Source: Candidatus Methylomirabilota bacterium
Lineage (GTDB): Bacteria; Methylomirabilota; Methylomirabilia; Rokubacteriales; CSP1-6
Assembly: GCA_036001065.1 (NCBI GenBank)
Contig: DASYUQ010000223.1
Coordinates: 1-37,597 of the forward strand
Reading direction: 5' to 3'
Length of the DNA stretch: 37,597 nt
The notes under the pieces: generated by a model
Told to the model about the DNA's origin: nothing
The model's database searches: none
What the model saw: the letters and a program-made list of their open reading frames with translations, nothing else
Part shown: positions 2,125-27,949 of the stretch, in pieces
Layout of the letters: each line of letters opens with the position of its first letter
How positions within the stretch are numbered: the stretch's first letter is position 1
Program-made: the position numbers and the translations under genes

Positions 2125-3387
2125 TCATGCCGTGAGCGCGCGGGCCACCAGCTCGACCGGGTGGACCACCTCGATGTCGAGCCCCCGTGCGCGACATCCC
2201 TTCGCGATCTGGAGCAGGCAGCCCGGGTTCGCGGCGGCCACGACCCGGGCTCCCGTCGCGAGGATGCGCGAGATCTTCATGTCCAGCAGCCGCTCGGCCA
2301 TCTCTGGCTCGACGAGATTGTAAACGCCGGCGCTCCCGCAGCAGAGCTCGCTGTCGGCCAGCGGGACGAGTCGCAGGCCCGGAACGCGGGCCAGCAGGGC
2401 GCGGGGCTCGCTCCTCAGCTTCTGGCCGTGAGCCAGGTGGCAGGCATCGTGGTACGTCACCGTCGTCTCCAGCCGGCCGAGCGGCAGCTCGACGTCGACG
2501 AGGAGCTGGCTGACGTCTCTCACGCGTCGAGCGAGCGCTCCGACCTCGGCGGCCTCGGGCAGCCAGTGGCCGTACTCCTTCATGGCCGACCCGCAACCCG
2601 CGGCATTGGTGACGACGTAGTCGAGGTCCCCGGCGAACTGCGCCGCCAGGGCCCGGGCACGTCGCCGGAACGCTTCGAGCCGCCCCCCGTGCAGATCGAG
2701 CGCGCCACAGCAGCCCTGCCCGCGCGGCACGACGACGTCCCAGCCGGCGAAGCTCAGCAGGCGGGCCGTGTCGCGGTTCACCCGCGGGTACAGGTGGCGC
2801 TGCACGCAGCCGGTCAGCAGCCCGACGCGCCCGCGGCGCCGACCCCGGGCGGGAATCAGCGCGGGCAGCGGATCGCGCTGCGGCACCGGGGGCAGCAGCG
2901 CCTCCATCGCCGCCAGGCGCGGCACCAGACGCAGCAGGCCACTGGCGCGGATCAGGCGCTGAAGCCCGAGGCGCTGAGAGAGGCGTAAGGCGCCGAGGAG
3001 CAGGCCCACGCGGCCGGGATGGGGGAACACGGCGAAGACCAGCCGCTTGAGCAGGCGCGGTTGAGACGACAGCCCGCGGCGCGCCAGCTGCGAGCGCGTG
3101 GCCTCCATCAGGGCGCTGAAGGGCACCCCCGCCGGGCAGGCGCTCTCGCACGCGCGACAGCCGAGGCAGAGATCCATGTGGCGCGCGAAGGCTTCCGTCG
3201 GCTCGAGCCGCTCCTCGGCGGCGGCCCGCATGAGGTAGATGCGCCCGCGGGGTGAGTCCATCTCCTCGCCGAGCACGCGGTAGGTCGGGCACTGCGGCAG
3301 GCAGATGCCACAATGCACGCACGCGCGGATCCCGTCCAGGCTGGGGAGGTCGGGCGCGGTGAAAGCTCCCAGTCGAGCACCACTCAT
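2125..3387 (-). CDS. glcF: Glycolate oxidase iron-sulfur subunit GlcF
   Basis: This 420-aa protein has two ferredoxin-type [4Fe-4S] motifs, at Cys23/26/29/33 and Cys74/77/80/84, followed by two CCG domains (GQGCCGALD and ELCCGSAG). This is the standard GlcF layout and length. It accepts electrons from the flavin subunits GlcD and GlcE and passes them to the membrane quinone pool. The start is the ATG at 3387, which shares one base with the glcE stop (TGATG), so translation is coupled. A longer open frame upstream lies inside glcE and is not real. The stop is 7 bp before the cupin start. Confidence 0.93.
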   Translation of the reverse strand: MSGARLGAFTAPDLPSLDGIRACVHCGICLPQCPTYRVLGEEMDSPRGRIYLMRAAAEERLEPTEAFARHMDLCLGCRACESACPAGVPFSALMEATRSQLARRGLSSQPRLLKRLVFAVFPHPGRVGLLLGALRLSQRLGLQRLIRASGLLRLVPRLAAMEALLPPVPQRDPLPALIPARGRRRGRVGLLTGCVQRHLYPRVNRDTARLLSFAGWDVVVPRGQGCCGALDLHGGRLEAFRRRARALAAQFAGDLDYVVTNAAGCGSAMKEYGHWLPEAAEVGALARRVRDVSQLLVDVELPLGRLETTVTYHDACHLAHGQKLRSEPRALLARVPGLRLVPLADSELCCGSAGVYNLVEPEMAERLLDMKISRILATGARVVAAANPGCLLQIAKGCRARGLDIEVVHPVELVARALTA

Positions 3388-27241: not shown

Positions 27242-27616
27242 TCACGCGCGATCCTGACGGAACCCCTTGGGTACCGGTGTCAAGGCGCGGCGGGCTCGGC
27301 CATCAGCGCATGTCATGGCGGTCTCCACCCGCTCGATGACATCGCATTGCTTCTGGTTGAGGAAGACCCGGAGGACGTACGCGCGCGGGCCCTGCATGAT
27401 GTGACCATCACCGAGATACATGCCGAGCAGGTATGCGTCGGCTGGATGCTGGTGCTGGTGGTGGGAGTCGAACCCACACTGTACCGATTTTAAGTCGGTG
27501 GCCTCTGCCGATTGGGCTACACCAGCATACCGTTCGAGCCAATATCGCACGGTCGAGCGCGGAACCGCCAGGACCCGTGCGATCGCCTTCATGGCATGCC
27601 CACTGCGATGAAGCAT
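27242..27616 (-). pseudogene. Helix-turn-helix/LAGLIDADG-like ORF with a tRNA gene embedded in it
   Basis: This 124-codon frame starts at ATG 27616. Residues 1-30 form a helix-turn-helix (KAIARVLAVPRSTVRYWL). Residues 31-56 are the in-frame translation of a tRNA gene whose first base is the first base of codon 31. From about residue 59 comes AYLLGMYLGDGHI, a LAGLIDADG-like motif, then VLRVFLNQKQCDVIERVETAM. I recall a family of high-GC bacterial proteins joining such an HTH to a YLLGLYLGDGH domain; those continue to a conserved C-terminus that is missing here, where 23 unrelated residues end the frame. It is probably a truncated homing-endonuclease-type gene. Whether it is ever translated through the tRNA is doubtful. 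Confidence 0.55.
27450..27526 (-). tRNA. tRNA with anticodon UAA (Leu by codon), short variable loop, CCA encoded
   Basis: The reverse strand folds as a full cloverleaf: acceptor GCTGGTG/CACCAGC (7 bp), D-arm GCC/GGC with a GG-containing loop, anticodon stem ACCGA/TCGGT with loop CTTAAAA (anticodon TAA), variable region ACAGT (5 bases), T-arm GTGGG/CCCAC with loop TTCGACT, discriminator A, and CCA encoded in DNA. UAA would decode the leucine codon UUA, but bacterial leucine tRNAs carry a long variable arm, which is absent. The three-pair D-stem with GGCAGA is rather leucine-like. It lies inside the HTH/endonuclease-like ORF. Confidence 0.8.
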
Positions 27617-27768: not shown

Positions 27769-27844
27769 TGGAGGCGGCGAGCGGATTCGAACCGCTGAAT
27801 AGAGGTTTTGCAGACCTCCGCCTTAACCACTTGGCTACGCCGCC
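27769..27844 (-). tRNA. tRNA-Cys (anticodon GCA), CCA encoded
   Basis: The cloverleaf is complete: acceptor GGCGGCG/CGCCGCC, D-arm GCC/GGC, anticodon stem GAGGT/ACCTC with loop CTGCAAA, T-arm GCGGT-like with TTCGAAT, discriminator U73 as required by cysteinyl-tRNA synthetase, and encoded CCA. It lies 30 bases downstream of tRNA-Gly on the same strand. Confidence 0.93.

Positions 27845-27874: not shown

Positions 27875-27949
<75 letters not shown>

Follow-up and report, generated by a model that had tools for sequence, protein, structure and literature searches.

A short tRNA-Leu gene nested in frame between the HTH and LAGLIDADG segments of a candidate homing endonuclease family that resides at tRNA-Leu loci

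The DNA examined here raises the question of how a tRNA gene can lie inside an open reading frame (ORF) that otherwise reads as a DNA-binding protein. The stretch is contig DASYUQ010000223.1 (37,597 nt; hereafter, the window) of a Candidatus Methylomirabilota bacterium of the order Rokubacteriales (assembly GCA_036001065.1). A preliminary description of the sequence had placed a tRNA exactly between a helix-turn-helix (HTH) segment and a LAGLIDADG-like segment of one open frame, and the locus bears this out. The minus-strand frame that opens at 27616 reads 30 HTH codons (MLHRSGHAMKAIARVLAVPRSTVRYWLERY; 27527–27616), enters the tRNA on a codon boundary at codon 31, as described, passes through the 77-nt tRNA-Leu(UAA) and its encoded CCA (27450–27526, called by ARAGORN and by Rfam RF00005), and then reads ...HQHPADAYLLGMYLGDGHI... 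to a stop at 27242, with the start of a LAGLIDADG domain occupying 27311–27449 (HPADAYLLGMYLGDGHIMQGPRAYVLRVFLNQKQCDVIERVETAMT). The three parts share a common frame without an internal stop. The claimed profile similarities stood in part: the HTH scores just over the Pfam HTH_23 cutoff (24.7 versus 24.6 bits), whereas the LAGLIDADG stub alone scores weakly (E 0.26), and it is the relatives that convince (LAGLIDADG_3 in 59 and HTH_23 in 57 of 65 full-length members). Compared with a congener (G001; ~91% identical DNA in this region), the copy in the window's own genome (G000) has lost 390 bp at 27310/27311 and, with them, the second LAGLIDADG motif; the remnant of the 3′-end beyond the deletion (27242–27310) continues to the stop in a frame that is not its original one. 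The window gene does not encode a full enzyme and is a decayed member of an HTH-LAGLIDADG family, in agreement with the decay first suspected from its missing C terminus. The congener copy is itself frameshifted.

The same layout recurs in more distant relatives. In a second Rokubacterial genus (G070; loci L096/L164), HTH, short tRNA-Leu(UAA), and LAGLIDADG again lie in one frame, with codon spacing at both junctions identical to that of the window genus despite a LAGLIDADG dS of ~1.6; the C terminus of this copy is also frameshifted. It had been argued at the outset that intact relatives of identical layout would define a tRNA-linked element, and two viral ORFs have this form: one of 245 aa with a tRNA-Leu(CAA) at 3109–3182 (L311; IMGVR_UViG_3300035698_014118) and one of 256 aa with a tRNA-Leu(UAA) at 3124–3198 (L313; IMGVR_UViG_3300025012_000028). 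In both, the frame offset is 0, the HTH is followed directly by the tRNA, whose first base is also the first of a codon, and a start codon lies upstream of the HTH, preceded in L313 by AAAGGA a few bases before the ATG. Both tRNAs pass Rfam, and every nested tRNA found is of the short kind. That HTH, tRNA, and LAGLIDADG stay in one frame in two genera of Rokubacteria and on two phage contigs, together with the location of relatives at tRNA-Leu genes, leads us to reject a chance arrangement. The weight here is carried by the common frame of the two protein parts and by the missing stop after the HTH. Openness of the tRNA frame was discarded as evidence, because 32 of 48 unrelated, non-nested short tRNA-Leu genes are open in the same frame. 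Within the phylum, an exact-pattern search found nesting only in G000, G001, and G070, plus two cases in which a class-II tRNA abuts the gene; no further nested case appeared among 400 Chloroflexota, and additional IMG/VR scans returned relatives but no third viral example.

Three explanations of the arrangement had been offered, namely a tRNA carried in the linker of an endonuclease, a tRNA gene that was the insertion target, and a transcript divided by RNase P and Z. The first fits best. Aligned with non-nested relatives, the residues encoded by the tRNA correspond to the linker, which is not conserved, and in the AlphaFold model of L313 only residues 45–66 have a pLDDT below 50, nearly the same interval as the tRNA-coded residues 43–67, with the HTH and nuclease domains confidently folded on either side of this predicted disordered linker. 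We infer from these correspondences that translation may run through the tRNA. An Rfam scan of the window, L311, L313, L164, and L111 yielded tRNAs only and no group I intron.

The location of the wider family was surveyed with a query containing only the LAGLIDADG residues, which retrieved 563 relatives from one-genome-per-species data. Among the best 80 of these, drawn from Actinomycetota, Chloroflexota, and Rokubacteria, the nearest tRNA is tRNA-Leu in 78, at a median distance of ~75 nt from the estimated gene body; this is the opposite of the absence from tRNA genes that the preliminary description had associated with coincidence. The linked anticodon is CAA mostly in Streptomyces, Actinomadura, and Chloroflexota, TAG in the divergent mycobacterial members, TAA in Rokubacteria and some Chloroflexota, and in other cases CAG. 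An independent, evenly drawn sample of 198 Actinomycetota gave matches in 17 genomes. With one weak match inside a long ORF set aside, 16 of 17 full or partial members adjoin tRNA-Leu (CAA, TAG, or CAG), and the remaining one adjoins tRNA-Trp with a tRNA-Leu ~1 kb away. IMG/VR contributed about 10 non-redundant viral loci in which tRNA-Leu lies beside, overlapping, or inside the endonuclease gene, as well as one redundant group with an adjacent tRNA-Met and a tRNA-Leu 0.8 kb away. Neither the INPHARED phages nor the PLSDB plasmids matched a Streptomyces query, and a phage-type query also found nothing in the phages. Because the gene may sit upstream of, downstream of, or around the tRNA, and on either strand, the common feature of these sites is the tRNA-Leu gene and not any one junction. 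A separate form of overlap between tRNA and ORF was seen on the viral contig L317/L328, where the stop codon of the endonuclease gene and a short tRNA-Leu(CAA) overlap by 7 nt.

Full members of the family are ~250 aa long and consist of an N-terminal HTH, a variable linker that often contains CPxC, and LAGLIDADG_3. Across the 65 full relatives, two motifs are conserved, YLLGxYLGDG and RGLxxSDG, of which LGDG is invariant and SDG nearly so (invariant residues G79, D80, G81, D180, and G181). The AlphaFold model of a family member (pLDDT 94.4) has the predicted fold of a homing endonuclease, with I-Tsp061I as its best Foldseek match among solved structures (E 4.5e-9), followed by I-AniI, I-HjeMI, and I-DmoI. 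Pairwise dN/dS values of 0.10–0.14 indicate purifying selection, and the protein tree mostly tracks host groups, with switches of tRNA class inside Streptomyces and Actinomadura. Two genomes labeled Streptomyces atratus (L111 and L122; JCM 3386 and OK807) differ in the clade of this tree to which their endonuclease alleles belong, hinting at allele exchange or misnaming. In two Chloroflexota members (L090 and L112), the N terminus is not an HTH and appears NUMOD-like by eye (WSKGLTAPTDARVARAAQANRGQRRGPY), which suggests exchange of the DNA-binding module.

The tRNA of the window scores 61.1 bits against RF00005 (cutoff 29), and its variable loop is 5 nt (ACAGU), so that it is class-I-like and without the long, class-II arm of canonical bacterial tRNA-Leu. 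According to a 2023 review, a long variable arm is found on tRNA-Leu everywhere but in animal mitochondria (PMC9976931). Its loss need not abolish leucine charging, because the arm is not among the identity elements of E. coli tRNA-Leu (A73, A14, A15-U48, G18G19, and A20a; PMC9976931), and the full set, including A73 and the A15-U48 pair, can be read in the window tRNA. A tRNA census of the same genome found class-II tRNA-Leu genes for TAG, CAG, CAA, and GAG and, for UAA, the short tRNA only. As the sole tRNA-Leu(UAA) found there, it may be charged with leucine and read UUA. The short-variable-loop signature of tRNA-Leu(YAA) is present in 53 of the 198 Actinomycetota genomes (e.g., L193–L222). 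Two mycobacteria were checked (G050 and G051), and their Leu(CAA) match is likewise of the short-loop type. A short-loop tRNA-Leu(TAG) has been noted in tRNA clusters of mycobacteria that also contain genes for HNH endonucleases (PMC6582537).

Comparison of corresponding sites shows that the tRNA is exchanged in place. Rokubacteria share a slot of three tRNA genes, tRNA-Gly(GCC), tRNA-Cys(GCA), and tRNA-Leu(UAA), the first two of which lie in the window at 27875–27949 and 27769–27844, respectively, both on the minus strand. The third gene varies. In seven genomes it is a native, canonical class-II tRNA (GCCGGGGTGGCGGAACTGG...), and no endonuclease gene was detected; elsewhere it is either a class-II tRNA whose acceptor reads GGGGGCG, in most cases with LAGLIDADG behind it, or the short GCTGGTG tRNA, which has HTH and LAGLIDADG or has lost them. 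The resident tRNA-Leu(UAA) has thus been replaced by one of two unrelated tRNA-Leu alleles that arrive with the gene and persist after its decay. Loss of the gene has left a nuclease stub behind the short tRNA in G023 and the short tRNA alone in G062, G083, G086, G087, and G026; the loci at which the tRNA has outlasted the gene are L180, L182–L186, and L215. Between tRNA-Cys and tRNA-Leu, many of the Rokubacterial slots (e.g., L165, L169, L171, and L183) also contain a small conserved gene (...HQALVFKSDEGHLxTWVQYIDKWIGGAN...). In Streptomyces, the slot is at the pyruvate kinase gene (pyk), where the endonuclease gene adjoins a short tRNA-Leu(CAA) or, in S. albogriseolus, a class-II tRNA; no Leu(CAA) match other than the linked short tRNA was found in the genomes of three Streptomyces examined for it. 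Locus L215 was rejected as a clean empty site for Streptomyces, being a deletion that leaves a 3′ stub. Mycobacterial tRNA-Leu(TAG) sites are occupied, cleanly empty, or marked by remnants, with a full gene or a fragment, in some cases short and weak, at 22 of the 48 loci examined. These clean empty sites, together with the placement of the gene on either side and either strand of tRNA-Leu, support at the family level the second of the original explanations, that the tRNA gene is the target.

The simplest account of these observations would be an endonuclease that recognizes tRNA-Leu DNA and whose repair co-converts the adjacent tRNA. We therefore favor, as a probable but by no means secure reading, a family of LAGLIDADG homing endonuclease genes that reside at tRNA-Leu loci and spread with their own divergent tRNA-Leu. 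The protein would cut the tRNA-Leu gene or its immediate flank in a chromosome or phage free of the element, and repair from the element-bearing copy would install the endonuclease gene together with its linked tRNA-Leu in place of the resident allele. The endonuclease gene would later decay, and the tRNA would be retained because by then nothing else reads its codon. In the nested form, which is rare, an uncut transcript would give an endonuclease whose HTH and nuclease are joined by a tRNA-encoded linker, and a processed transcript would give the tRNA. Such a cycle requires the linked allele to escape cutting, with which the sequence divergence of the linked alleles is consistent. Both the homing and the cleavage, including its site, are inferred here from sequence comparisons.

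A stronger version of this proposal, which we offer tentatively and consider less likely than its simpler form, is a natural cleave-and-rescue system. Here, the endonuclease would destroy the host tRNA-Leu gene and supply a recoded, cut-resistant tRNA-Leu, most compactly by nesting it in frame, in which case a functional tRNA and a functional protein's linker would be encoded by the same stretch of DNA. Over repeated rounds, the armless form may have displaced class-II tRNA-Leu, a universal component, from whole lineages.

Several observations weigh against homing with a linked tRNA or against parts of it. All three Rokubacterial nested copies are broken, and the intact ones are two singletons on metagenomic viral contigs. 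Most of the short tRNA-Leu genes in the sampled Actinomycetota have no HTH-LAGLIDADG gene within 1.5 kb, which leaves an origin of the short tRNA with the element short of proof. Among mycobacterial tRNA-Leu(TAG) alleles, no difference consistently separates those with the gene from those lacking it, which weakens the case for resistance of the linked allele. A resistance signature at a specific tRNA position was also considered and is unsupported, D-arm variants occurring in both mycobacterial allele groups. Lastly, a bacterial tree that largely follows host group and the low dN/dS would be compatible with long vertical residence or domestication.

The last point underlies the alternative that survives best, although we regard it as unlikely: an HTH-LAGLIDADG regulator, or a maintenance factor for tRNA-Leu, that has been domesticated and, in a manner similar in spirit to WhiA, controls the expression or copy of tRNA-Leu without homing. 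The mostly vertical tree, the intact genes in Streptomyces and mycobacteria at a dN/dS of about 0.1, and the HTH in most members are what such a regulator would predict. It fits poorly with a patchy presence in which clean empty sites and remnants occur inside one genus, with matches in 17 of 198 Actinomycetota, with conserved nuclease-type motifs, with members in phages, with a position and strand that vary relative to the tRNA, and with tRNAs swapped in place. Less probable still is that the tRNA is an advantageous cargo, for example an armless tRNA-Leu that escapes defense nucleases cutting the variable arm, and that the role of the endonuclease is confined to spreading or amplifying this cargo, as with SegB and tRNA-Tyr. 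Several viral members do have a short tRNA-Leu nested or adjoining, but many linked tRNA-Leu genes, cellular and viral, retain the long arm, the bacterial copies are chromosomal, and no defense system is known here to target tRNA-Leu variable arms.

Two further alternatives seem very improbable. Division of the transcript by RNase P and Z into an HTH message and an endonuclease message, giving two separate proteins, would suit a tRNA that looks processable (51–61 bits in Rfam) and some class-II Rokubacterial copies, in which LAGLIDADG occurs without an HTH; however, no nested case has a stop of its own after the HTH, the frame is kept, the intact phage ORFs start before the HTH, and the non-nested relatives are single-chain HTH-LAGLIDADG proteins. 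That the tRNA merely marks a hot spot or landing site, as tRNA genes do for integrases, with the nested frame an insertion by-product, accords with the use of tRNA genes as common insertion sites and with the often open frame through the tRNA, but not with the near absence of other isotypes, the lack of an integrase, the exchange of the tRNA body itself, or the HTH, tRNA, and LAGLIDADG in one frame without an HTH stop in four lineages.

The nearest precedent for homing at tRNA-Leu genes, by analogy, is SegB of phages T4 and T6, an endonuclease that cuts inside tRNA genes beside its own gene (motif RAWTSGAAC) and helps the tRNA region to be inherited or amplified (PMC13096335). Like the present family, SegB is free-standing and adjoins tRNA genes; it differs in having a GIY-YIG fold and no preferred tRNA isotype, whereas the family described here is LAGLIDADG, tied to tRNA-Leu, and mostly chromosomal, and in-frame nesting with a tRNA has not been reported for SegB. 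I-Tsp061I, I-DmoI, and I-AniI share the fold and the two conserved motifs, but they are intron-encoded, and our family has no group I intron, an added N-terminal HTH, and a tRNA-Leu gene as its site. WhiA also combines an HTH with a LAGLIDADG-like domain. Its HTH is C-terminal and its nuclease residues are lost, unlike the N-terminal HTH and conserved motifs seen here, and it was not among the best 50 Foldseek matches. Group I introns in tRNA-Leu(UAA) likewise exploit a conserved tRNA-Leu gene, but our family has an uninterrupted tRNA, no intron, and an endonuclease gene that either encloses the tRNA or lies against it. Homing endonucleases are a known kind of element, and the nested tRNA is the most unusual feature here. 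Our search of the open-access full-text literature found no description of the family, its linkage to tRNA-Leu, or the in-frame nested tRNA.

If homing with a linked tRNA-Leu is correct, selfish endonuclease genes can capture and swap tRNA genes that are essential for decoding. This would be nature's equivalent of the engineered cleave-and-rescue drives, would give tRNA structure a way to change, and would supply a candidate source of armless tRNA-Leu in bacteria. A gene with the nested layout would be dual-coding, its tRNA serving also as a protein linker, with the regulatory consequence that each transcript yields either tRNA or mRNA. For annotation, the practical rule is that HTH-LAGLIDADG genes mark tRNA-Leu loci.

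A further tRNA in the window's own genome deserves mention. At G000:C76:9845–9930 (L075:246–331), ARAGORN calls a tRNA-Pro(UGG) that nevertheless has a Leu-type D-loop, a long variable arm, and A73; this tRNA could be chimeric and mistranslating, and a normal tRNA-Pro(UGG) is present on the same contig. Immediately upstream of it lies a second tRNA-like element (G000:C76:9692–9798; 36.7 bits).
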